The translations under genes and the position numbers were made by a program. Source: Bacteroidales bacterium (lineage in GTDB: Bacteria > Bacteroidota > Bacteroidia > Bacteroidales > JAADJA01). From it: DNA of 46,977 nucleotides. The stretch spans positions 1-46,977 of the forward strand of contig JAUVJI010000013.1 in assembly GCA_030596605.1 (NCBI GenBank), written 5' to 3'. Of this stretch, positions 2,326 through 43,635 are shown one piece after another (the stretch's first letter is position 1; every line of letters begins with the position of its first letter). Below the pieces are notes generated by a model. It did no database searches. It saw only the letters and a list, made by a program, of their open reading frames with translations, and had not been told where the DNA came from.

Positions 2326-3336
2326 TTATGGAGTCCAGTAAGTGTATCCCATAATTTGGGCATCACTCCATACCGACGTTATACCGGCGGTTATCATATT
2401 ATCATATATCATTCCGTTTGCGCCATACAGTAATGATTTTGCATCATAACCTAACAAGCGAAGGTAAGCTGTCATAAATGAACTTGTTTGACCTGTATAA
2501 CAATACACAACAACAGTTTTATCGGTTGGTAAAGTTTTCAGATCAGCATCTAATGCAATTGCTTCTTTAGGAGTATATTGCATTGCACCAGTGATATGTC
2601 CCGGATCTGTATAATGAGCTTCTGACCAATAATTAACGATATAATAGTTGTCCAGATTAGCAAAAATTGTTTGATTGCTAATTTTTGCCGGAGTATATCC
2701 TTCGGCTAACAGATCATCAACACGTGCTTCCAGGATTGCCTGCCCGGTTGTTTCGCCTGTTGATAAATCAGGTAAATCTCCTTCAGTTCCTTTTGCTGTA
2801 GCATCTGCTGTAAATTGGTAAGCATAAGCATTACCAATGTTTGTGTTCCACTTTCCGGCAAAATCTTCATTCCATGAGCACATACCCCACTTCATAGAAA
2901 ATACATTGTCATATCCTAAAAGTCTTAACAAACTAGTTGCAAATCCAGCAGTTTGGCCGGTATAACAAACAATTGCAACCTTTTGATAAGTTGAAATATT
3001 AACACCTTCGATATGTGTTAGTAAATCAGCAAGTGTTACATTTACTGCATTCTCAATATGAGCTGTATCATAATCTCCAGCCCCTCGGATATCAATGATA
3101 TAAATATCTCCAGTTGTATTAAACGTTTTTACATCCTGAGCCGTAATGATAGACGGCAAATCAGTGTTTACATAATATTTCCCTAATGGGCTATTTGTAG
3201 ACTCAAGGTACGTCGCCAGTACTTCTGATTCATTTACCGGTGGTGGCGTTGGTTCAGGTTCATCATCATCGCCACAAGCTGCAAAAAACAGGAAAGCGAA
3301 AGCAATAAAATACCATAAAATTTTTGTGTTTTTCAT
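2326..3336 (-). CDS. Lipoprotein with two rhodanese domains
   Basis: Predicted surface or periplasmic lipoprotein with two sulfurtransferase-fold domains. I choose the ATG at 3336 because it gives a compact signal peptide with lipobox FFAAC (Cys21) and an acidic linker; the upstream in-frame ATG at 3363 would add nine unneeded residues. Domain 1 has the active-site loop CYTGQTAG, domain 2 has CYTGQTSS, so both keep the catalytic cysteine. Each domain ends in the same pattern (LLRLLGYD, YLRLLGYD), indicating an internal duplication. It lies directly downstream of, and co-directional with, the decaheme cytochrome gene, about 50-90 bases away, and probably shares its transcript. Rhodaneses move sulfane sulfur or act in sulfide, thiosulfate or polysulfide handling; the substrate here is unknown. 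Its place in a cytochrome cluster suggests a role in surface respiration or cytochrome maturation (inference). Confidence 0.87.
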   Translation of the reverse strand: MKNTKILWYFIAFAFLFFAACGDDDEPEPTPPPVNESEVLATYLESTNSPLGKYYVNTDLPSIITAQDVKTFNTTGDIYIIDIRGAGDYDTAHIENAVNVTLADLLTHIEGVNISTYQKVAIVCYTGQTAGFATSLLRLLGYDNVFSMKWGMCSWNEDFAGKWNTNIGNAYAYQFTADATAKGTEGDLPDLSTGETTGQAILEARVDDLLAEGYTPAKISNQTIFANLDNYYIVNYWSEAHYTDPGHITGAMQYTPKEAIALDADLKTLPTDKTVVVYCYTGQTSSFMTAYLRLLGYDAKSLLYGANGMIYDNMITAGITSVWSDAQIMGYTYWTP

Positions 3337-3423
3337 AGAAAAAAATTTAATTAAATTAGACATAGTTTATTTATATAAAATTATTTTATTTTTCTTCAAA
3401 CCAAGATGGCGGTAATTTGTCAT

Positions 3424-4749
3424 CTACAGTATACCTGATGTTGCACTTAGTTCCCATTCTAGCAGGTCATCCTGGAATAAGAATAATTCTTTATTAATTA
3501 ATTCTCCACCTTCATTTCGAATATGACAATTATTAGAGCATGATTTTCCATTACCTACTTGTGTCCTGTCAGTCCATCTCAACAGGTTATGTGGTGATGT
3601 ATAATTATAAGTAGGAAATACATCGAAGTTCGAATATTCAGGTACTCCATATAATTCCCAATTATCAGGTGCAGCCAGGGTTCGGCGAACCAAAGTAAAA
3701 TCGAATTCAGTAACCACATCAGGGATGGGATTTCCAGCTATTTTGAAACCCATGTATGATGGAACTCTGGCGCCATCACCGTGGATATGGCAACTGCCAC
3801 AATTATTATAAACTTGTGAGTGGCACACATGGCAATTAAAATCACCCATGTGAGAAGCATGATAAAAATTCTTTGATTTTAAATCTGAATGGCAATCTTC
3901 ACATTCAGGTAGTTTTTCATAGGCATACCTTTGTTGCACATTAGTACCGTCTCCATGTAATTCATCACCATCATGGCAATCAATACATTTAAAATTCAAT
4001 GAAGTTAAATGTACATCAGGTTGTGTTCCGGCAGCTACACCCAAATACGCATGTCCGCCTCTCGATACATGACAGGTAACGCAAACATTTAACATATCAG
4101 GAGTTTTGTTGAAAGCATGACCATTGGATAGGCCACCACCGCCAATCGGAGGACGAACAATATGACAATTACCACAGGTACCATGACATGTTGCACAGTT
4201 TGCATTGTATCCTTCAATTTGATGTTCGGGAAGTTGATCAAAATATTGGGGGCCATTTAATCCGCTTCGCCTGGTTACTGTTCTCTTTTGCCCGGTACCA
4301 TGATGAAGACTTGTAGCATGATTATTAACAATCGCCTGGTGACATGAACCACATTTTTCATCTGCATAATCTGACGGATGTCTGATGAAATCACCGGAAT
4401 GCGCAGTTTCTTTTTCTGAAGTATTATCAACCCCGTTATGACAACCCACACATCCTATTCCGTAATGCCCGGAATTTTTATAAGAATCATATCCATCGCC
4501 ATCCATATAAACCCTGTCGTAAGGTTCATAGTGCGGGGCCGTACCACCACAGCCACCCGGAGGAGCTGCTGTATCGGGGGTATAAACTTCTTGCAAGTGA
4601 GCATAGTTGGTATGGCATCCTTCGCAGGATGCTGTTGTATCAGGAACCGGATCAGGATCTGCCTCATCTTCTGAACATCCTATTATGATCCATGCCGAAA
4701 ATGTCAGAATCAGCATTATTCCTGAGATTTTAATTACTTTTGAATACAT
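3424..4749 (-). CDS. Multiheme (decaheme) c-type cytochrome lipoprotein, apparent C-terminal frameshift
   Basis: Predicted outer-membrane multiheme cytochrome for electron transfer. The N-terminus has a hydrophobic segment and lipobox-like IIIGC (Cys25) followed by an acidic linker. I count ten CxxCH haem-binding motifs (CEGCH, CVGCH, CGSCH, CATCH, CGNCH, CVTCH, CIDCH, CEDCH, CHVCH, CGSCH) plus one CSNNCH, which would be a CX3CH variant near the C-terminus. Many extra histidines could be distal ligands. The frame stops at 3424, but one extra base near 3430 would continue it as SGYTVDDKLPPSWFEEK to a stop at 3386. That reads like a genuine C-terminus, so a one-base deletion or sequencing error is likely. 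The gene is divergent from the Crp/Fnr regulator and lies upstream of the rhodanese lipoprotein gene. Confidence 0.9.
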   Translation of the reverse strand: MYSKVIKISGIMLILTFSAWIIIGCSEDEADPDPVPDTTASCEGCHTNYAHLQEVYTPDTAAPPGGCGGTAPHYEPYDRVYMDGDGYDSYKNSGHYGIGCVGCHNGVDNTSEKETAHSGDFIRHPSDYADEKCGSCHQAIVNNHATSLHHGTGQKRTVTRRSGLNGPQYFDQLPEHQIEGYNANCATCHGTCGNCHIVRPPIGGGGLSNGHAFNKTPDMLNVCVTCHVSRGGHAYLGVAAGTQPDVHLTSLNFKCIDCHDGDELHGDGTNVQQRYAYEKLPECEDCHSDLKSKNFYHASHMGDFNCHVCHSQVYNNCGSCHIHGDGARVPSYMGFKIAGNPIPDVVTEFDFTLVRRTLAAPDNWELYGVPEYSNFDVFPTYNYTSPHNLLRWTDRTQVGNGKSCSNNCHIRNEGGELINKELFLFQDDLLEWELSATSGIL

Positions 4750-4904: not shown

Positions 4905-4946
4905 TTGATCCGAATCATCTTTTTATATGATAAAATTGTATATTTG
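4905..4946 (+). promoter_or_regulatory. FNR/CRP-like box plus Bacteroidota -7 element upstream of the Crp/Fnr gene
   Basis: TTGATCCGAATCAT at 4905-4918 matches the FNR consensus TTGATN4ATCAA at all but the last base. A Bacteroidota -7 element, TATATTTG, lies at 4939-4946. With transcription starting near 4950-4953 the box is centred close to -40, the usual place for direct activation. It lies in the space shared with the divergent cytochrome gene. Confidence 0.6.
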
Positions 4947-4970
4947 CTGATTGTTTTGAAATTAGAAGGA

Positions 4971-5666
4971 ATGGAAAGTAAGCACCCCTATACAAGTTGT
5001 ACCATAAGTTCGCATCATTGCATGTGTTTTGAAAAACTTACTGATGATGAGCGTAAGCTATTGGATGAGCATTCAGTGTTTATTGAATACAAAAAGAAGG
5101 AAGTCATTTGCAAACAGGGCAGCTTTGTTTCGCATATAATGTTTGTGGAAAAAGGCCTGGCAAAAGTATTTTTAGACAATGGATCGCATACGCTGGTTCT
5201 TAAAATTGTTCCGGAGGGAAATCTACTTGGATTATCATCGATTTCGGAAGAAAATAATACCTTCCAGTATTCTGCATCAGCCTATATCGACTCTGAAATC
5301 CGTCAAATAGATATCAAAATATTCAGACAATTATTAAGTCAAAATATTAGTTTTTCCAAAGAGGTAATAGAAATATTAAGCGCAAACAGCGTACAGGTAT
5401 ATGGGCGGTTTTTTTGTTTGACACACAAACAATCTTTTGGCAGACTGGCAGATATTTTACTTTGTCTTTCTGACAGAATTTTTAAACTTTCTGAATTTGA
5501 GTTACCGCTTTCGCGTAAAGACCTGGCCGATTTATCGGGTATGAGCCCGGAAACTGTCATCAGGATACTAAAAAAATTCAGTGAGGATGGTTTGATCAGT
5601 ATGAATGGAAAAAACTTTAAAGTGCTCGATTATCCCCGTCTGCAACGAATAAGTGAAACCGGATAG
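4971..5666 (+). CDS. Crp/Fnr family transcriptional regulator
   Basis: Cytoplasmic DNA-binding regulator of 231 residues. I choose the ATG at 4971, preceded by AGAAGGA; an upstream in-frame TTG at 4905 would bury the promoter and FNR-like box. The cyclic-nucleotide-binding-fold domain spans about 20-140 and the winged helix about 150-225. The recognition helix reads SPETVIRIL, keeping Glu and Arg of the FNR/CRP signature (ExxSR in FNR) with Ile in place of Ser. Cysteines at 10, 17, 19 and 47 are clustered N-terminally. This resembles the Fe-S-ligating arrangement of oxygen-sensing FNR proteins, though the spacing differs from E. coli FNR, so cluster binding is an inference. Position between cytochrome genes suggests it controls anaerobic electron-transfer genes, and the upstream box suggests autoregulation. 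Confidence 0.88.
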   Translation: MESKHPYTSCTISSHHCMCFEKLTDDERKLLDEHSVFIEYKKKEVICKQGSFVSHIMFVEKGLAKVFLDNGSHTLVLKIVPEGNLLGLSSISEENNTFQYSASAYIDSEIRQIDIKIFRQLLSQNISFSKEVIEILSANSVQVYGRFFCLTHKQSFGRLADILLCLSDRIFKLSEFELPLSRKDLADLSGMSPETVIRILKKFSEDGLISMNGKNFKVLDYPRLQRISETG

Positions 5667-6583: not shown

Positions 6584-8107
6584 TTACTTATTATTCCCGC
6601 CACCAAAATTAAATGTAGCGCCAAAATAAATACTGATGGAATTGTAACCGGTATTCATATTATTTTCGAGTGTGCCTTGTAGGGGAACTAATTCATTTGT
6701 ATTAAATTCAGATGGATCAGATAGATTCGCCCATTGCTCCTGATTTTTATCACGTCCAAAAGAATACTGCAGCCCGGTGATCAAATCCTGACCTAAAATC
6801 CTCCATGATAAACCTGCGGTGATATGATAAACATTAAGGTCAAAACCTTTGATACTCATATTCTCCAGATAGGGATTATAATTTAGATTTTTACGGAAAT
6901 TAAAATCTGTCCGGAATCCTGCCATCAATAAAATATTCTCTTTCACATTCCAACTATATCCAACAGCAGCATTTAACACCGGTTTTGCTCCACTAATATA
7001 TGTCAACCATTCGTTAAATACTATTTCTTCGAAAATTGAACCTGCAGCCAGATCAGGATTTTCATTGGCCTCAACCAGTCTGTAAGGGTCAAGACCATCA
7101 AAATATTCGATTGTTGAGTAAAACACTTTTGATCCGTCTGCGGTATAGTAGGTAAACCCTGCCGCCACCGATAAAGGACTTTTTGAATTTACAAAAACAT
7201 CATTTTTTTCTTTGTATTCAACAAGTACATAATCAGGTAAAGGTTCTCCTGTTTCCAATGTAATATTACTTTGTTTCTCATTTCGTGTCACTATTTTACC
7301 ATCTGAATAAATGCCGCCGATGGAAGGAGTCGTAAAATTAATACCTATACTGAACCTATCCGTTTTATATAACAATCCGATCTTAAAAAGCAATCTGTAA
7401 TCGTTGTAACTTATATAGTCCATTTTTAAGTAGTTAGCAGAATAGAACGGGACGTATTGATTATTAATAAAAACAGAATCCAGGGGGAAAGCTTCAATCT
7501 CCAATGCATACCTGTAATCAAGTGACTTAACGGAGATAAACATGCTGGTGCCTATATAAAATTTTGGACTTAATTTCAATGAACCTCCTATACCTAACCA
7601 ATCATCACGATAACTATTTGAATATTGAAAAAATGAATAGTATCGCTCATCGCCTGGCAGTTCTTCTAATATATCCATGTTTTTATCAACCGATTGAGTT
7701 ACTTCCAAATGATAATTTTCATTATTTAAAAAAGCAATCTCAAGGCTCCATTCAGGATGATTTTTTGGCTTGATCATGTATGAAATAAACCGCGGTTCAA
7801 TAATTCCTCTTGAGAAATTTAAATCAATACCATCACCTAATGCATTTTGAACCTCCCAAAAATTATAAGAGAATAAACTGGCATGTAAAGAAAATTTCGA
7901 TTCGTTTATTTCCGCAATGCTGGATGGGTTGTAATAAATGGCTGCAGGGCCAGAACCACCACCAACCACAGCACCTGATAAAAGTGAGGATTCTTCATTG
8001 AAACTTCGGGTCCAATGATTGTGTGATTGGCCCAATGCTAAAAAGGGTATTAGCACGAAAAATAAACAAACTATCTTTTGCCTTTTGTTATACCGATACG
8101 AAATCAT
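6584..8107 (-). CDS. FadL/OmpP1-like outer-membrane transport protein
   Basis: Predicted large outer-membrane beta-barrel of 507 residues. The signal peptide spans about residues 10-27 (cleavage after ALG in FLALGQS). The N-terminal stretch SGPAAIYYNPSSIAEI matches the NPA-type motif of FadL/TodX/OmpP1 proteins, which pass hydrophobic substrates across the outer membrane. Many amphipathic beta-strands follow, ending in SIYFGATFNFGGGNNK. The length is typical of the family (about 450-550). Within a cytochrome cluster it could be either a substrate channel or a structural barrel; the sequence does not decide. A -7-like TAAATTTG lies on the minus strand at 8134-8141, about 27 bases upstream of the start, with no clear -33 partner. 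Confidence 0.75.
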   Translation of the reverse strand: MISYRYNKRQKIVCLFFVLIPFLALGQSHNHWTRSFNEESSLLSGAVVGGGSGPAAIYYNPSSIAEINESKFSLHASLFSYNFWEVQNALGDGIDLNFSRGIIEPRFISYMIKPKNHPEWSLEIAFLNNENYHLEVTQSVDKNMDILEELPGDERYYSFFQYSNSYRDDWLGIGGSLKLSPKFYIGTSMFISVKSLDYRYALEIEAFPLDSVFINNQYVPFYSANYLKMDYISYNDYRLLFKIGLLYKTDRFSIGINFTTPSIGGIYSDGKIVTRNEKQSNITLETGEPLPDYVLVEYKEKNDVFVNSKSPLSVAAGFTYYTADGSKVFYSTIEYFDGLDPYRLVEANENPDLAAGSIFEEIVFNEWLTYISGAKPVLNAAVGYSWNVKENILLMAGFRTDFNFRKNLNYNPYLENMSIKGFDLNVYHITAGLSWRILGQDLITGLQYSFGRDKNQEQWANLSDPSEFNTNELVPLQGTLENNMNTGYNSISIYFGATFNFGGGNNK

Positions 8108-8213: not shown

Positions 8214-8254
8214 TTAAAAAAACAACCTCGTTTCCGTAATAGGAAACGAGGTTG
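8214..8254 (-). terminator. Terminator of the octaheme cytochrome gene
   Basis: A perfect 13-bp stem (8223-8235 with 8242-8254) has a 6-base loop and is followed on the minus strand by a T-run (A-run at 8216-8222 on the plus strand). It separates the octaheme gene from the downstream FadL-like gene. Confidence 0.88.
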
Positions 8255-8307: not shown

Positions 8308-9831
8308 TTATTTGACCAACACTAGTTTTTCAACTGATGAAAAATTGTCAGATGAAATATTTACGAAATAATATCCTGATGTTATGTCAGATCCGGTGTT
8401 ACTATTACCATCCCATGAAATATATTGGTCACCGGCTGATTTTACTTCATTGATTAATGAATAAACCACTTGTCCTGAGGCATTGTAAATAGTAAGTGTA
8501 ATGCTTTCAGAATTTGGCAACGTAAAGTTTATTTTAGTCGGGCCAAAAGTTGGATTTGGATAAATTCCAATTTCAATGCTTTCCCTTTCGGCTATTGAAG
8601 TCTCATTATGCATTCCGGCGGCCTGTTCAGCTGCATCTTCAAGGATTTTGTCCGGAATATCATCATCAGGATCATCATTATGACAACCTAGGCAGGCATA
8701 GGCAGGACTTAAGGCAGCCGGTCTGTTTTCATCATCTTTTACTGCACTTCCATCTTCTGTAAACATTGACTCAGTATCAGGAATAATTTTCACAAGATGT
8801 GATCTTACATCACCCATATAACCACTTTCACCTCTGGTAGTTCCTGATTTGGCTGCAAAGGGCATGTGACAATCAAGGCATGTAGCATCTCCATTATGAT
8901 CGATATGGTTTACCTGATTGGGATGACAAGTTCCGCAAGTCATTATTATACCATCACCATCCCAGATAACCCTTTTGTGTGGATTATGGCATTGAGAACA
9001 ATCCATACCTTGTTCTTTAAAATGTTTTGTTGCAACAAACTCATCCCATTGTTCGTGATGTTTGATAAAGCCACCGCTTGAATTAATCGGGCTCGTGTAA
9101 CTTCTGTTATGGCAAGTACCACATAGAAAGTTAATATCATCGCTGCCTGGGTCAGGGGTTAGAACATCATCTCCAATTTGTAATCCGCCAATACTATTAT
9201 CCTGATGTGCAAATTCATAAACTTTGTCTATATCATCGGCTGAGAGGGTGTTAACGTGGTCTCCTCCCGGGCCATGGCAACTTTCGCAACCAACTCCACC
9301 TTCGGTAAAATTGCCAAGATCATCAACACCATCCAACCAGGTTCCAGTCATAGTACCTCCTGTTGTATGGCACTTAAAACAACCATAATTATAAACTTTA
9401 TTTTCATTGGTTGCCTCATAGTCAACCCAACCGTGATCTTCTCCGCCATAAAAATTGAATTGATTATGACCTAATCCGGTACTGTATGCACTTCCCGCTG
9501 TACCCACGATATGGCCATCATTTCCAACAAAACGGGATTTCCATCCATAACCGCCAATAACGCCGGCAATATCATCCCATGTGTGTGAACCATCACCTAG
9601 ATTTGTCATCCAGGAAACCTGATAATTGAAAGCTTCTGGTGGATAAACTGGTGGCTGACCATTTTCAATTACGGTAAATTTGTAAGGATGCCCTGATGTT
9701 ACCCAAAAATTGTATTTTTCTGAATGACATTGCTGACACGCATCTGATCCAACCCAGTCCTGTGCTGTTAACAACCCACTGCTGGATAGTAAAATCGTTG
9801 CTGAGAAAAGAAATAGTAGAAGTTTTTTCAT
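8308..9831 (-). CDS. Octaheme c-type cytochrome with T9SS C-terminal sorting domain
   Basis: Predicted cell-surface or secreted multiheme cytochrome of 507 residues. The signal peptide is MKKLLLFLFSATILLSSSGL with cleavage near TAQ. Eight CxxCH motifs follow: CQQCH (from residue 32), CFKCH, CESCH, CGTCH, CSQCH, CGTCH, CLDCH and CLGCH. The segment CESCHGPGGDH resembles the cytochrome c554 / octaheme family. After the haem region, about 80 C-terminal residues form a T9SS type A sorting domain: IGIYPNPTFGP start, FlgD-like WDGNSNTG, SGYYFV, and the end KLVLVK. Export through the type IX system would place the haem domain outside the outer membrane. A promoter and a palindrome lie upstream, followed by the response-regulator and kinase genes on the same strand, so phosphorelay control is plausible. 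Confidence 0.93.
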   Translation of the reverse strand: MKKLLLFLFSATILLSSSGLLTAQDWVGSDACQQCHSEKYNFWVTSGHPYKFTVIENGQPPVYPPEAFNYQVSWMTNLGDGSHTWDDIAGVIGGYGWKSRFVGNDGHIVGTAGSAYSTGLGHNQFNFYGGEDHGWVDYEATNENKVYNYGCFKCHTTGGTMTGTWLDGVDDLGNFTEGGVGCESCHGPGGDHVNTLSADDIDKVYEFAHQDNSIGGLQIGDDVLTPDPGSDDINFLCGTCHNRSYTSPINSSGGFIKHHEQWDEFVATKHFKEQGMDCSQCHNPHKRVIWDGDGIIMTCGTCHPNQVNHIDHNGDATCLDCHMPFAAKSGTTRGESGYMGDVRSHLVKIIPDTESMFTEDGSAVKDDENRPAALSPAYACLGCHNDDPDDDIPDKILEDAAEQAAGMHNETSIAERESIEIGIYPNPTFGPTKINFTLPNSESITLTIYNASGQVVYSLINEVKSAGDQYISWDGNSNTGSDITSGYYFVNISSDNFSSVEKLVLVK

Positions 9832-10011: not shown

Positions 10012-10671
10012 TCAATCAAAGGAAATTATATTATGCTGTGCAGCATATTTGAGCAGTGCAACAACAGAATTAACTTTTAGCTTTTGCATTAAATTCCTGC
10101 GGTGGGTTTCAACTGTTCTCACACTTAAATGCAATTCATCCGCAATTTCCTGGTTGCTTTTATCATCTGCAACTTTTTGGATTATTTCTATCTCCCGTCT
10201 CGTAAGATGTATATCTTCCTGAACTGTTTTTTCTTGATCTGATAATTGCTCAAGAACATTATTGATCATCTGCTCCGATAATTGATTACTTAAGTACCGT
10301 TTGCCTTGGAGTACTGACTCTACAGCTTCAATAAATTCCTCCTTTTTTGAATTTTTAAGCAAATAACCGTGTCCACCGGCCCTAAGTATCTGAACAACAT
10401 ATTCGTTTTCATCATGCTGTGTAAGTGCCAGTATTTTTGTATTTGGAAGTTTATTTGTAATAACTTTAATGGCTTCGATACCACTGAGTATGGGCATTGA
10501 TATGTCCATGAAAATAATATCTGGTCTTAATTGTAGCGCCTTTTCAATCGCTTCTTCACCATCGTAAGCATTTCCAATGATGCTGTATCTTTTATGCGAT
10601 CTTAAAATATCCCTGATACCGTTATGAATGACTTCATGGTCATCTGCGATTAGAATGTTAATTTTTTTCAT
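10012..10671 (-). CDS. NarL/FixJ-family response regulator
   Basis: Cytoplasmic two-component response regulator of 219 residues. The ATG at 10671 gives the canonical start MKKINILIADDHEV; a longer frame to 10764 lies inside the kinase gene and adds a non-homologous 31-residue lead. The receiver domain spans 1-125 with acidic pocket Asp10/Asp11 and phosphoacceptor Asp56 (IIFMDISMP). The LuxR-type helix-turn-helix spans about 150-215 (LTRREIEIIQKVADDKSNQEIADELHLS, recognition helix VRTVETHRRN). The start overlaps the 3' end of the kinase gene by 14 bases, so the two are translated together. The octaheme cytochrome gene, on the same strand 180 bases downstream with a palindrome in between, is the likeliest target. 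Confidence 0.93.
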   Translation of the reverse strand: MKKINILIADDHEVIHNGIRDILRSHKRYSIIGNAYDGEEAIEKALQLRPDIIFMDISMPILSGIEAIKVITNKLPNTKILALTQHDENEYVVQILRAGGHGYLLKNSKKEEFIEAVESVLQGKRYLSNQLSEQMINNVLEQLSDQEKTVQEDIHLTRREIEIIQKVADDKSNQEIADELHLSVRTVETHRRNLMQKLKVNSVVALLKYAAQHNIISFD

Positions 10672-12463
10672 AAACAGCTTTTTTTCGACATGGAATTTCA
10701 ATGATAAGCTCAGTCCCTTTTTCCGCTTGTGAGTCAATGGAGAAGGTGCCGTTAAATGAAGCAATCCTTTCCCGAATACTTATTAATCCTATACCGATCT
10801 TCTTACTACCTGAATCATAAGCTTTCAAGTCAAAACCAACACCATCATCTTCAATTACTAAAACAATAAAACCTTGCGCTCTGAAAAGTTGGAAAGAGGC
10901 ATTTTTTGCCTTTGCATGTTTGATAATATTTGTCAATGATTCCTGACAAATTCTATAAATGGCTTTCTCAAGTTTAGGGTCAATACGATCATTAAAATCA
11001 TATGAATTGAACCTGAATTTTGTTTTATATACATCATTGGCTTTGTTTATGAGGTTTTCAATGGCTGCAACAAGGCCAAAATCCTTAATCATGATAGGGA
11101 TTAGGTTGTGTGCAAGGTTTTTTGCCTCTTTTATTGCTGAATCTATTTGTTCCTGAATTTTAACCACTGATGAGGAATTCTCCTTATCGTTTGTGTTTAA
11201 ATTCTGAATTGAAAACGAAATGGCCGACAGTGTTTGACCAAGGCCATCATGCAGATCAGTCGCTATCCTCATGCGTTCTTCTTCCTGTGCTTCATTGATC
11301 GCGATCAAATGCTCTTTGTGGATATGTTCCAATTCTTCTTCATAGGCTTTCATTTCTGCCAGATCATGTCCCACCAGGATTAAACCATCAGCTTCATCCT
11401 TTTGATTTTTCAAAATGGTACAGCTTATTAGCGCTGATATTTGTTTTCCACTTTTTGAAATAAAATAATTTTGTTTGTTAATGAATTGCTGATAATTGTT
11501 TAGTTTAGATTCCGTAGTTGAACTGTCATAATCCTTTGGAATATCATTGTTAAACAAAATTTTGATATTCTGATCAACAAGGTCAGGTTCCTTATATCCA
11601 AGCAATTTTAATGATGCGGAATTAACTGATCGGATGATGCTGTTTTTATCGGTAACCACCAACGGATCAAACATATTTTCCAGTATATTGTTAAGATAAT
11701 TTTTTGAAACTGTTGTTTCATCCAGTGCATCTAACATATTATTAAAAGAATCGGCTAATGTTAGAAACTCGTCATTGGAGTTAACGCTTACCTTTACTTT
11801 TCTGTCGCCTTTGCCGATTCTCTGGGTCACAGTCACCAGCTCCCTGATAGGATCTGTGAGATTGCGGATAAATCTTATTCCGCCAATTGATAGGATCAGG
11901 ATTAAGATAATCCCAAAAAAAACAACTGTAAATGTACCATGCAGAATTACTGTTTGGTTTCTTTTCTCGTATTTTTCAATTTCCACTTTTGTTTCATCCA
12001 CCAACAAATCTACTTTGCTGATACCATTTTTAATTTCACTCAGAATTAATCCATTGATAGATTTTTTTTCTTCTTCACCGGCTTGAAACAAATTATTGAC
12101 TGCATTTTCCACATTGGTCATCATTGTCTCAAATTCATTCAAAAGACTTAATTTATGCGATATGGTCAAAACTTGCTTGCAAGTATCAAGTTTCACTTTC
12201 GACTCCGTAACCAGTGCCTTGAATTCAATCTCAGCATAATCACCATTATCATTTAAACTATTTGCAAAAATCAATAAGTTGCTGAGCGACATTTTAAACT
12301 CCTGAACTGCATGTAGTTCATGATACTCAATAATAAGCTCTTCGGTGGTATTCTTAAAAAAACCAACGATGATCTGACTTCCCGCAACCATTAATATTAT
12401 GAGGGATAGCATGATCAATCCGCTTATTGTTAGTTTTTTTCTAATTGAGTATTTCATGCCCAT
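10658..12463 (-). CDS. NarX-like membrane histidine kinase (HAMP-PAS-HisKA_3)
   Basis: Inner-membrane sensor kinase of 601 residues. TM1 is at about 11-35. A periplasmic mostly helical sensor (36-170) resembles the four-helix-bundle sensors of NarX/MCP proteins. TM2 is at 171-198, HAMP at 199-250, and a PAS domain at about 255-370 (TDKNSIIRSVNSASLKLLGY). The HisKA_3 dimerisation helix carries the phosphoacceptor His405 in RIATDLHDGLGQ, and the HATPase_c domain (about 490-600) has the N box (CQESLTNIIKHA) and G box (EDDGVGFD). This domain order pairs with NarL/FixJ regulators, matching the overlapping downstream gene. The ligand is unknown. NarX homologues sense nitrate/nitrite, but the P-box is not clearly present. 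An alternative start is Met3 (12457). Confidence 0.92.
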   Translation of the reverse strand: MGMKYSIRKKLTISGLIMLSLIILMVAGSQIIVGFFKNTTEELIIEYHELHAVQEFKMSLSNLLIFANSLNDNGDYAEIEFKALVTESKVKLDTCKQVLTISHKLSLLNEFETMMTNVENAVNNLFQAGEEEKKSINGLILSEIKNGISKVDLLVDETKVEIEKYEKRNQTVILHGTFTVVFFGIILILILSIGGIRFIRNLTDPIRELVTVTQRIGKGDRKVKVSVNSNDEFLTLADSFNNMLDALDETTVSKNYLNNILENMFDPLVVTDKNSIIRSVNSASLKLLGYKEPDLVDQNIKILFNNDIPKDYDSSTTESKLNNYQQFINKQNYFISKSGKQISALISCTILKNQKDEADGLILVGHDLAEMKAYEEELEHIHKEHLIAINEAQEEERMRIATDLHDGLGQTLSAISFSIQNLNTNDKENSSSVVKIQEQIDSAIKEAKNLAHNLIPIMIKDFGLVAAIENLINKANDVYKTKFRFNSYDFNDRIDPKLEKAIYRICQESLTNIIKHAKAKNASFQLFRAQGFIVLVIEDDGVGFDLKAYDSGSKKIGIGLISIRERIASFNGTFSIDSQAEKGTELIIEIPCRKKAVYEKN

Positions 12464-33629: not shown

Positions 33630-36161
33630 TTAATCATTTTTTAATAAAAAATTTATTTTTTTTCGAAACCAATTTGTCTCAGATAATTCTATTTGTGATA
33701 ATTGATATTTCGATAAAATTTCTTTATTGAATTTATCTTTCATATTGAAAGATTTAAAGAATTCTTCAACTTCATTAGATTCCAGATAATTAATTATTTC
33801 GTTCTCGTTATGTTTATCGCGTAATTTTTCAGCTTCTATTCTAAACTCTTGATAAGAATTACGTGAATTTTTATAAATTGAAATTATTTGATTTTTGTTT
33901 TTATTTTTTTGATAAATAATTTCATCAATATATTCTTGTTTGTTAAATCCTTCTAACTTCATTTCTTCAATGTTATCAGGATGATATAAATAATTTTCTA
34001 AACAATAGTAGTTGAGAATAAAGTAATTTGGATATTTTTTCCTTATCCTAATTATCTCGGCATCTATTAAAAAATCACGATCTCTAAGTCCATATATATC
34101 AGGATTAATTTTAACTTTCATAAAAACGGATGAGCTATCCCTTTCTGGGAAAAAACTAGTTTGAGATATTGTAATCCCATTTAGTAAACTTGCATTTTGG
34201 TTTTCACATACTATTATTTTTTCTTCAGAGATTGCTTTCCTTGCAATATCACTAGTTAACCCAAAAACTGAAACTTCATTTAAACTTATTTCACATCGTA
34301 TATTCATAATATTGTTGAATTCATATCTTCTCAATAGATTAAAATCGTAAAAATGAGGAATTCCACTAGTTGAGCATACTTCGCAATTGCATGGAATCAT
34401 TTCACTTACTTCTAATTTGTTAAAATCATTATGAATTTCAAATATAGTTTTTCTAATTAAATACAGAAATTCTCGTTTATTCTTACCACTTAATTCAATA
34501 GTTATTTTGCTATCAAAATATTTTTCTTTGATTATTGCATTTGTTTCATCGTATTGAAGCATTACTCCGTATCTCCAAAACTTTTCATCTAGAATATCTG
34601 AATTCATCTTAACAATTAGTCTTGCTACAATACCCTTTGGCATAAATTTATAACGGAATTCGAACTTTGTGTTTTCTGTAGATGTATGCCAATTATGTTC
34701 AACTTCATCAACTGGAAGCAATCTAGGAACTAAAAATTCGCCGTTTTCTAATTCGAAACACAAATCAAATTTTGTGTTTTTCATCAAAGAAATTAGTTCA
34801 CGTATTTTATTCTTATGTTCTTCATTTGACCATATTCGCTCAATATCATCATATGAAAACCTACCTTTTTGCTTAATTACTGATTTGTCATCAAGTACTT
34901 TGTATACACCTTTAGTTATCCATTCATGATTTAATATTACAATATCTTTTAAGTCTACATCTCTTTGAAAATGAATTATTACACCTAAATCATGAAAATA
35001 TTCGCTTAAGAATAAAGCACTATCTTTTTTCCTATAATGTTTTTTGCAAATATTTAGATACTCACATTGACTAATATAATTTAGTCCTGACAATTTTAAT
35101 TCTTCAATATCTCTTCTAATATCAACCCATACTTTTGGTAATGGATTTCCAATGTGTGGTAATTCTGAGGCAATCTTTTTTAATGAAGTTCTAAATTCAT
35201 TAAAATCCTTTCTGTTTTCATTTTTTAAACTTATTTTATCAAAAGAAATTATGTTATTGAAAGCTGATTGATATTCTTTAATAGGCAACTCTTTTGTCGG
35301 TTGGTCGCATTTGTTTAAAGCCATCATTACAGGGCTGTTATCGCCCAATAACTTTATTATATTTAACCAGTAAAAGAAGTCATCATGGCTATCCTCTTTT
35401 CTTGATTCAGTTACTAAGAGATAAATAGATCTCTTAGTTAAAAAAAATTGATGGGTCGAATGATAAATCTCTTGGCCACCAAAGTCCCAAATATTTATTT
35501 GAAAATCTCTTTCAATTTTTGGGTTAATTTCTTGAATTTCATCTTTAGGTATAACCCATCTACCAATATTTATTCCTTCAGTACTTGTTTCTTCTTCTAA
35601 TATATAATCCTCTTTTACAAGTGCTTTAGAAATACAGGTCTTTCCAACTCGCCCTTCTCCTACAATTAAAAGCTTAACCTCATAAATGAAATCTTGTTCC
35701 TTTAATTCTTTAAAAAAGTTCCTAACTGAGTCAATTCCTCTCGCGACTATCTCAGGCGGTAACATATCAAATGGATTATTAGATATCTTGAGTTCCTCAA
35801 TTCCATGCATGTTAGCCACTCTTTCTGGTAATTCTTTTAATTTATTGTTATTAAGGTTTAAGTATTTTAGCCTTTTAAGATTAGCTATATTCTCATTTAT
35901 TTTTATAACTTTATTATTTTCAAGATTGAGTTTTGCAAGTCTCTTTATTTTAACAATTTCTTTAGGAATTTCTTGTATTTTATTTCTTTTATCTTCATCT
36001 ATATAATCAGAATTACTAAGATCAATTGAAACTATATTTGGATGTTCAAATAGTTCTTTAGGGATTTCAGCAAGTCCGCAGTTTCTTAAGTCTACAACTC
36101 CCCAGCCATGAATAGTTACATTTTTTAGTGTTTCTTTAATCTTTTTTAAATTTCTCATCAT
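33630..36161 (-). CDS. LRR-Roc-COR (ROCO) GTPase with C-terminal TOPRIM/DUF4435-like domain
   Basis: Large multidomain protein of 843 residues without signal peptide. Leucine-rich repeats fill about 20-140 (LTKLNLENNKV-type units such as LKYLNLNNNKLKELPERV). The Roc GTPase follows: P-loop GEGRVGKT (168-175), DFGGQ (226-230), NKCD (283-286). The COR region runs about 340-620, with a Cys cluster CNCEVC (591-596). A last domain, about 625-740, has KIIVCEN (Glu653), GLRDRDFL (Asp694, Asp696) and YYCLENYLYHPDNI. This acidic pattern and the ENYL motif resemble TOPRIM nucleases of the DUF4435 kind, such as the PARIS effector AriB. A helical tail ends the protein. The gene is visibly more AT-rich than its neighbours and stands between repeats, suggesting transfer. 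The ROCO part is certain; the TOPRIM assignment and a defence role are inference. Confidence 0.85.
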   Translation of the reverse strand: MMRNLKKIKETLKNVTIHGWGVVDLRNCGLAEIPKELFEHPNIVSIDLSNSDYIDEDKRNKIQEIPKEIVKIKRLAKLNLENNKVIKINENIANLKRLKYLNLNNNKLKELPERVANMHGIEELKISNNPFDMLPPEIVARGIDSVRNFFKELKEQDFIYEVKLLIVGEGRVGKTCISKALVKEDYILEEETSTEGINIGRWVIPKDEIQEINPKIERDFQINIWDFGGQEIYHSTHQFFLTKRSIYLLVTESRKEDSHDDFFYWLNIIKLLGDNSPVMMALNKCDQPTKELPIKEYQSAFNNIISFDKISLKNENRKDFNEFRTSLKKIASELPHIGNPLPKVWVDIRRDIEELKLSGLNYISQCEYLNICKKHYRKKDSALFLSEYFHDLGVIIHFQRDVDLKDIVILNHEWITKGVYKVLDDKSVIKQKGRFSYDDIERIWSNEEHKNKIRELISLMKNTKFDLCFELENGEFLVPRLLPVDEVEHNWHTSTENTKFEFRYKFMPKGIVARLIVKMNSDILDEKFWRYGVMLQYDETNAIIKEKYFDSKITIELSGKNKREFLYLIRKTIFEIHNDFNKLEVSEMIPCNCEVCSTSGIPHFYDFNLLRRYEFNNIMNIRCEISLNEVSVFGLTSDIARKAISEEKIIVCENQNASLLNGITISQTSFFPERDSSSVFMKVKINPDIYGLRDRDFLIDAEIIRIRKKYPNYFILNYYCLENYLYHPDNIEEMKLEGFNKQEYIDEIIYQKNKNKNQIISIYKNSRNSYQEFRIEAEKLRDKHNENEIINYLESNEVEEFFKSFNMKDKFNKEILSKYQLSQIELSETNWFRKKINFLLKND

Positions 36162-42162: not shown

Positions 42163-43635
42163 ATGAAAAAACTTCCTTCTTTTTTTTCGACTTTAGTGAT
42201 TTTCTGCTTTTTATTTCAAACCACACTTTTTGCTGAATTTGTAGAAATCAGCACAGCACGGCAAGTTGCTGAAAATAAAATTAAATTATCTGATCAAGAT
42301 TGTGAATTTACAATCAAGTTTGAAAGAACATTTGTTGCAGAAGCGCAGACAAAACCTTTGTTTTATGTCTTTGAACTTTTGCCCAAGGGTTATGTTGTTA
42401 TTTCAGCCGATACAGATCTACCTCCGGTTATTGCTTATTCGTTTGAGAGTAACTTTGAAATTTCAGAAAATTTGAAGAATCCATTAACCGAACTCTTAAT
42501 TGCAGATTTACAAAATCGAAAGAATAATATTCCAAACATTCCTGATGAAATTATTTCGGTACGTAATCTTGAATGGGAAAATCTATTTCAGGGCATTGAC
42601 GAGATAAGTTTTGAGAAATCATACGGGCCTTATATACAAACCGCTTGGGGACAGGGTGCTCCATATAAAAATTTTTGTCCCATGGATCCTGTTACCAATG
42701 AGCGAAGTATAGCAGGATGTCCGGCAGTGGCCATGGCACAGATCATTAACTATTATGCCGCCATTAATGAATCAGTTTTTACAGATCTGGATGATTACTA
42801 TCATTCTTATGCAGGAAGAAATTACTGGATTGATGACGAATACGAAGATCTTGATTTCCCATCTTTTCCTCTGCTCAATATGTACCTTGACACCCTGGTC
42901 GAATGCTGGCAAAATCAAACTTCATTAAAAGATAATGAAAAAGCAGCCCTGAATTTTGCCTGTGGAGTAGCGGCCAAGCAAGTATATACATCAAGCGCTT
43001 CAGGAACATTTGGTGTAAACCAGGCCTTTGATGCTTATTTACGTTTGGGATTTAATGAGGCGATCTTATTGGATGATAATGATACATCCCTTTACACCCA
43101 ATTAACCCAAAATATGATAGATGGCCGGCCTGCCCATCTGGCTGTTGTTGATGAGGGCTGGACAATGGGACATAACGTGGTAGTGGATGGTTATGATATT
43201 GGTGGATTTTATCATCTGAACTTCGGGTGGAACGGATCATATAACGGATATTATTTGCTTCCCGATGAAATCCCATATGGATTGACCGTCATTGAGGGAT
43301 TGATACTGAATATCGAATATCCTCCTGTTTATACAAATGCTCCGAATTATAGTCAACAATTTCAATCCGGAGAAATTGAAATATTTCCAAATCCTGCAAA
43401 TGATCATATTTATATAAATTATTCCATTTCAGATGCTGAACCTGTCTGTATCAATATTTATGCAGTGAATGGTGCCTTGATCTCATCATTAATAGATGAA
43501 AATCCAAATGAAGGACTGAATATTATTAGGTTGGATTTTAATGAATCAGGAATAGCTAAATTTCAAAAGGGAATGTACTTCTGCATACTGAATTCAAATG
43601 AAGGATTTAGAACAGGAAAATTTATCGTTCGATGA
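42163..43635 (+). CDS. C10-family cysteine protease (streptopain-like) with T9SS sorting domain
   Basis: Secreted papain-like protease of 490 residues. The signal peptide is about 1-24 (ends TLFA). An inhibitory Spi-type propeptide (about 27-110, YVFELLPKGYVVISADTDLPPV) precedes the mature domain with catalytic Cys186 in AGCPAVAMAQIINYY and His337 in MGHNVVVDGYD, followed by HLNFGWNGSYNGYY. From about 405 a T9SS type A sorting domain begins with IEIFPNPANDHIYI and ends with GKFIVR, so the protease should reach the cell surface. Related enzymes include SpeB and interpain. Its stop overlaps the start of a methyltransferase gene (ATGA). TAAATTTG at 42128-42135 is a possible -7 element. Confidence 0.93.
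   Translation: MKKLPSFFSTLVIFCFLFQTTLFAEFVEISTARQVAENKIKLSDQDCEFTIKFERTFVAEAQTKPLFYVFELLPKGYVVISADTDLPPVIAYSFESNFEISENLKNPLTELLIADLQNRKNNIPNIPDEIISVRNLEWENLFQGIDEISFEKSYGPYIQTAWGQGAPYKNFCPMDPVTNERSIAGCPAVAMAQIINYYAAINESVFTDLDDYYHSYAGRNYWIDDEYEDLDFPSFPLLNMYLDTLVECWQNQTSLKDNEKAALNFACGVAAKQVYTSSASGTFGVNQAFDAYLRLGFNEAILLDDNDTSLYTQLTQNMIDGRPAHLAVVDEGWTMGHNVVVDGYDIGGFYHLNFGWNGSYNGYYLLPDEIPYGLTVIEGLILNIEYPPVYTNAPNYSQQFQSGEIEIFPNPANDHIYINYSISDAEPVCINIYAVNGALISSLIDENPNEGLNIIRLDFNESGIAKFQKGMYFCILNSNEGFRTGKFIVR

Follow-up and report, generated by a model that had tools for sequence, protein, structure and literature searches.

An octahaem cytochrome bearing a type A sorting domain: a candidate haem-loaded cargo of the type IX secretion system in Bacteroidales

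The octahaem gene and its surroundings

The window analysed here is the whole 46,977-nucleotide stretch of DNA from a Bacteroidales bacterium, whose source assembly comprises 4.3 Mb in 218 contigs (88% complete, 5.6% contamination). At positions 8308..9831 its minus strand carries a complete open reading frame of 507 amino acids with an ATG start, the plus strand being full of stops. The first-pass annotation had placed here an open reading frame combining eight CxxCH motifs with a complete type A sorting domain of the type IX secretion system (T9SS), and our analysis bore this out: we counted exactly eight motifs (Cys 32, 151, 182, 237, 278, 299, 318 and 380), and the domain, running from IYPNP to KLVLVK, scores above the curated cut-offs of both Pfam and TIGR04183. 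The N-terminus, MKKLLLFLFSATILLSSSGLLTAQ, looks by eye like a typical Sec-type signal peptide, and a putative peptide of about 23 residues, read from the sequence as ending in LLTA ahead of a Q, occupies 9763..9831 (minus). A check of the cysteines in this region found no lipobox Cys ahead of the first haem motif. The haem core with all eight motifs follows (residues 24-409; 8605..9762, minus), and the sorting domain (residues 421-507; 8311..8571, minus) comprises seven predicted strands and ends in EKLVLVK. The nearest public record of the gene, at 95%, is from a Bacteroidales metagenome assembly.

Just after the gene lies a terminator-like hairpin (8223..8254, minus; 13 pairs, a loop of 6 and a T run), which matches the consensus and is among the three strongest of the region; together with the 180-base gap upstream, it indicates that the octahaem gene is probably transcribed as a separate unit. 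On this strand, the genes upstream encode a LuxR/NarL-type response regulator (10012..10764, minus) and its partner, a sensor kinase with HAMP, PAS and HisKA_3 domain matches (10658..12463, minus). Homologues of the kinase, the NarL-type regulator or both lie upstream on the same strand at ten related loci. A CRP/FNR-type regulator, likewise recognized by domain matches, is encoded at 4905..5666 (plus), with homologues divergently adjacent to the octahaem gene at five other loci. The conservation of these regulators suggests that expression of the octahaem gene may be under acceptor or redox control, the adjacent two-component system being its probable controller.

A second multihaem cytochrome (3424..4749, minus), with about 10 CxxCH motifs, a lipobox and an acidic mature N-terminus (C-SEDEADP) that we compared with the published export motif (PMC5080379), is by its proximity a possible surface electron partner of the octahaem protein. 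It is adjoined by a double-rhodanese lipoprotein (2326-3363, minus), the mature N-terminus of which (C-GDDDEPEP) also resembles an export signal. The gene immediately next to the octahaem gene (6584..8107, minus) codes for a predicted outer-membrane-type, barrel-like protein of 507 amino acids with no match in Pfam, NCBIfam or PDB. Its homologues are almost confined to the genus, with two genomes (G011 and G016) having homologue and octahaem gene on different contigs, and adjacency to the octahaem gene was found only in this species pair, so that the protein probably lies outside the system. We therefore rejected the idea that it forms an electron conduit or serves as a dedicated shuttle, given the missing family and PDB matches, the unconserved adjacency and the intervening terminator. 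The genes next to the octahaem gene include none for an outer-membrane electron conduit, and multihaem gene clusters adjoin the octahaem locus at three related loci (L054, L060 and L066). Elsewhere in the window, a bacterial Roc-COR protein with leucine-rich repeats is encoded at 33630-36161 (minus).

The sorting domain and its exchange for a lipid anchor

The Pfam profile Por_Secre_tail (PF18962) matches residues 423-504 over profile positions 1-74 of 75, with 38 bits against a cut-off of 27 (E 2e-9), and TIGR04183 scores 43.6 bits against a cut-off of 23. Since FlgD_ig, with 41.7 bits, slightly outscores Por_Secre_tail in Pfam, the identity of the domain was examined further. An AlphaFold model of residues 421-505 (pLDDT about 80-91) folds as a seven-strand immunoglobulin-like sandwich, and its Foldseek partners are PorZ, PorU, FlgD, the C-terminal domain (CTD) of mirolase and the CTDs of RemA and RemZ bound in the SprA-PorV translocon. 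The profile of the octahaem family also matches the solved T9SS CTD chains 8glk and 8glj. Structure and profile comparisons thus place the domain with the true T9SS CTDs; a type B CTD was rejected, CHU_C scoring below its cut-off. The conserved lysine in the last residues (motif E), which is required for secretion in the CTDs studied (PMC10202324), is present in the terminal VEKLVLVK. In the closest pair of relatives, pN/pS is 0.15 in the CTD as against 0.11 in the core, two other pairs of near relatives have no amino-acid change in the CTD, and a more distant pair gives 0.35 and 0.12, respectively. By these ratios, purifying selection on the CTD between near relatives is similar to that on the haem core. 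As at least 150 CTDs above the cut-off are found in the source genome, a CTD by itself tells little about function; among the other multihaem genes of this genome that were inspected by eye, none ends in one. The window also codes for an ordinary T9SS protease, a C10 peptidase with a Spi inhibitor domain and Por_Secre_tail (42163-43635, plus).

Relatives were sought with residues 23-410 only, leaving out the CTD because circularity had to be avoided. A single scan of 84,980 genomes with this haem core returned 33 loci, and a phylum sample gave matches in 8 of 395 genomes (the source genome included), which makes the protein uncommon. The relatives, from some 35 other genomes, carry either a CTD or a lipid anchor; they range over Bacteroidota, Calditrichota and Neomarinimicrobiota, where nearly all are CTD-ended, with further homologues in Planctomycetota. 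The spacing of the haem motifs is nearly constant among them. The similar fusions that the first-pass annotation had proposed to look for do recur: relatives retrieved by the core search show the same order and near-fixed spacing, so that the pairing of haem core and CTD is not a chance one. Nor is the CTD lost in all homologues, as would have spoken against the earlier proposal; Por_Secre_tail is kept in 24 of the 27 aligned relatives, FlgD_ig in only 17.

The three aligned relatives without a CTD (L036, L053 and L065), the genomes of which bear a T9SS, stop about 30 residues past the last haem, at the point where the CTD linker starts in the others. Each has an N-terminal lipobox instead (VSC-KDDDP, SAC-SNETIDE and TSC-SKDDDP, respectively), and the acidic motifs of L036 (C-KDDDP) and L065 (C-SKDDD) resemble the lipoprotein export signal that directs Bacteroidota lipoproteins to the surface (PMC5080379). 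A planctomycetal homologue from a genome without SprA (L077) likewise has a lipobox and no CTD. A tabulation by regular expression gave 31 proteins with a CTD and no lipobox, 4 with a lipobox and no CTD, and one exception of each kind (Fisher p 4e-4, which serves only as a guide, the sequences being related); of the exceptions, the 'lipobox' of L074 is false, being part of the signal peptide, and L075 is truncated by the end of its contig. In the tree, L053 and L065 are placed together within the CTD-bearing clade, which implies a swap of the anchor, and L036 and L077 sit on long, insecure branches. As the CTD-less members have a lipobox, the family itself appears to use both routes, and CTD and lipid anchor look like interchangeable ways to place the same haem core outside. 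The pattern thus suggests that the protein works outside the cell.

The source genome encodes SprA (2611 bits) and PorV (490 bits), together with three long PorU-type matches, two side by side on one contig and the other elsewhere, which may be paralogues or in part contamination. A cytochrome c assembly protein (PF01578) is present in a frame of 1062 amino acids. A SprA match was found in every CTD-bearing genome searched, that of one genome (G502) being partial and below the cut-off. Five Planctomycetota genomes with homologues gave no SprA match, and none of their homologues carries a CTD. Such a restriction of the CTD to genomes with SprA would be expected of a domain that depends on a T9SS to function. 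Although the T9SS is described in reviews as confined to Bacteroidota, six records bearing the labels Calditrichota, Neomarinimicrobiota or FCB group have SprA homologues and T9SS CTDs, with SprA over the cut-off in all their genomes except one from Calditrichota.

Several relatives are larger. Two octahaem units are joined in tandem ahead of a single terminal CTD in L054, L061 and L066, giving 16 haems; 15-23 haems precede the CTD in L060, L072 and L073; and L075, with 15 haems, ends at a contig edge. The 23-haem proteins, of about 1555 amino acids (L072:263-4930 and L073:6777-11450), combine tandem octahaem units with a third haem region of another type, and they end in a CTD. A separate multihaem protein of another kind, with 5 CxxCH motifs in 640 amino acids and a Por_Secre_tail end, is encoded at L050:2360-4282 (minus). 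With these fusions and the L050 protein, T9SS export of haem proteins may extend beyond the octahaem family. In a Lewinellaceae assembly, the octahaem gene is split into two frames with 4 and 9 CxxCH motifs (L062:1691-4341), a frameshift or sequencing error. Collagen-like GxxGxx repeats follow the lipobox Cys in two multihaem lipoproteins, one from the source genome (L083) and another at L068:6410-7483.

The haem core, a model of export and its alternatives

Against PDB, the family profile matched MccA (3.9e-14), 6qvm (7.8e-14), OcwA (4.3e-13) and cytochrome c554 (4.5e-5), these E-values being of partial coverage and possibly inflated by motif bias among CxxCH-rich sequences. The similarity to MccA peaks over residues 260-356 and does not extend over the full length. 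Pfam's Mtrc-MtrF_II-IV also matches residues 298-400 (34.7 bits against a cut-off of 30). The C-terminal three-helix bundle of NrfA, HAO, MccA and OcwA is absent, only about 30 residues separating the last haem from the CTD linker, and the CTD-less relatives, which end at the same distance, have no place for it either. No CxxCK or other non-canonical active-site motif was found, all eight being CxxCH. As both the bundle and CxxCK are missing, the haem core is best described as distantly related to cytochrome c554, MccA and OcwA rather than as a member of the NrfA/HAO/MccA type.

Outside the motifs, His 48, 192, 258, 285, 345 and 408 are invariant (H408 with the exception of one gapped row) and H270 nearly so. 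Six invariant histidines and one near-invariant for eight haems would be consistent with an open haem. In the AlphaFold model, the core has a mean pLDDT of 58.7, and this low confidence led us to reject it as a source of haem ligands. All members of the close family have a His-His pair (H258-H259); of the eight distant members, five have His-Arg in its place. OcwA, a cell-surface terminal reductase that also reduces nitrite slowly, has its open haems 2 and 5 beneath His-His motifs (PMC6703420). The T9SS is established as a carrier of folded proteins (PMC9251779), and its CTDs are captured by PorV inside SprA and then released outside (PMC10994853).

In our favoured reading, which we consider fairly probable, the octahaem holo-cytochrome is exported folded by the T9SS and works at the cell surface, as a redox protein or a terminal reductase. 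Covalent assembly of haem in c-type cytochromes occurs at the inner membrane. The precursor would leave the cytoplasm via Sec, receive its haems on the periplasmic face from the cytochrome c assembly system of the cell, and then fold. With PorV as shuttle, the folded cytochrome would pass through the SprA translocon in the outer membrane with its CTD in the lead, after which PorU-type processing would remove the CTD and the protein would stay on or near the outer surface. Its most likely role there would be that of a terminal reductase or an electron-exchange protein similar to cytochrome c554, MccA and OcwA, and substrate might have access to at least one of the haems. The data show the gene, its haem motifs, the CTD and its conservation, a T9SS and a cytochrome c assembly protein in the genome, and the alternation of CTD and lipobox among relatives; export with the haems in place, a surface location, a redox role, an open haem, the substrate and the electron route over the outer membrane are what we infer. 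The broader proposition, that the T9SS is a general surface route for c-type cytochromes in Bacteroidota, Calditrichota and Neomarinimicrobiota, taking fully loaded proteins of 8-23 haems through the SprA pore and being interchangeable in evolution with lipoprotein flipping for one and the same redox core, stands in our estimate at even chances.

Exported in the same way, the protein could instead be a surface enzyme acting on a soluble substrate, such as an oxyanion of nitrogen or sulfur, and not an electron exchanger for minerals, electrodes or partner cells, a reading we regard as possible but somewhat unlikely. It would account for the sulfite reductase MccA being the best PDB profile match, for the H258-H259 pair with its counterpart above the open haems of OcwA (PMC6703420) and for the NarX/NarL-like layout of the adjoining regulators; however, the likeness to MccA is strongest only over the stretch given above and comes with neither CxxCK nor the helix bundle, the His-His pair gives way to His-Arg in most of the distant members, and soluble substrates are usually reduced in the periplasm. 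An extracellular haem wire or matrix, with the octahaem unit as a modular bead strung in fusions of 16 to 23 haems, seems improbable to us: the tandem proteins with a single CTD, the 23-haem proteins and the multihaem gene clusters beside L054, L060 and L066 point in this direction, but most members, including the protein from the window, consist of one octahaem unit and are about as large as an enzyme.

More doubtful still is a periplasmic location of the cytochrome, in which case the domain would be a vestigial or misannotated immunoglobulin domain of the FlgD type with no part in secretion. The slight lead of FlgD_ig in Pfam would fit it, yet across the relatives Por_Secre_tail is the more widely kept of the two, and the matches to translocon-bound CTDs, the conserved terminal lysine, the purifying selection, the lack of a CTD in homologues from genomes without SprA and its replacement by a lipobox in CTD-less relatives all run counter to it. 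We give very little credence to secretion of an apo-protein that acquires haem outside, for example by haem capture. The haemin-binding cargo HBP35 of Porphyromonas gingivalis, cited in PMC10202324, shows that T9SS cargo can bind haem, but eight CxxCH motifs of fixed spacing with conserved histidines are typical of covalently matured c-type cytochromes, and the source genome has the PF01578 assembly protein.

Implications and comparison with known systems

What is understood of extracellular electron transfer comes mainly from Shewanella, Geobacter and Gram-positive thermophiles, and the T9SS has been associated mostly with proteases, adhesins and gliding. If folded export of the octahaem cytochrome holds, Bacteroidota and neighbouring phyla would dress their cell surface with haems by a route of their own, the T9SS, and research on this system would gain a coloured, covalently loaded cargo; as haem could be attached only before export, its detection outside would be direct evidence of transport in the folded state. 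The swap between CTD and lipobox within one family likewise offers a ready comparison of two routes of surface delivery.

With the T9SS type A cargo RgpB, PorZ, RemA and HBP35, the protein shares a Sec signal peptide (putative here), a seven-strand CTD, the terminal lysine and a genome with SprA, PorV and PorU; it differs in being an octahaem c-type cytochrome, which would need folded, haem-loaded export. HBP35 binds haemin and, unlike the octahaem protein, is not described as a c-type cytochrome. The octahaem sulfite reductase MccA (PDB 4RKM; NrfA/HAO/OTR superfamily) is similar in its eight haems, a CxxCHMP-type motif and the best profile E-value (4e-14), but has 732 rather than 507 amino acids, whereas our protein has only CxxCH motifs, no C-terminal helix bundle and an extracellular tag. 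OcwA (PDB 6I5B) and 6QVM are surface multihaem cytochromes of Gram-positive bacteria. The likeness to OcwA comprises a profile match across haems 1-7 (E 4e-13), a c554-like start, a long insert between haems 1 and 2 and the His-His motif; unlike these two proteins, ours has eight haems rather than nine or eleven, no terminal helix bundle, a Gram-negative host and a T9SS tail in place of cell-wall placement.

Shewanella MtrC and OmcA are also multihaem proteins of the outer face, a location that in our case is predicted; they are lipoproteins of ten haems that have split-barrel domains and belong to a porin complex, whereas the octahaem protein lacks a lipobox and is not homologous to them over its full length. 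Type II secretion has been proposed for the export of these ready-made surface cytochromes (PMC1974784), which is the nearest conceptual precedent. The first-pass annotation had called T9SS export a distinct way of placing haems on the surface compared with lipoprotein flipping; the use of both routes within the family agrees with this, but the proposed type II export of MtrC and OmcA calls for a qualifier. The CTD-less L036 and L065 would follow the route of Bacteroidota surface lipoproteins (PMC5080379), by lipid anchor and flipping rather than the T9SS, and the octahaem protein itself has no lipobox with an acidic export motif. In searches of open-access literature, which covered neither subscription papers nor preprints, none of the papers listed joined the T9SS and multihaem cytochromes. 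The components are of known kinds, and what is new is their combination and the natural exchange between CTD and lipid anchor.
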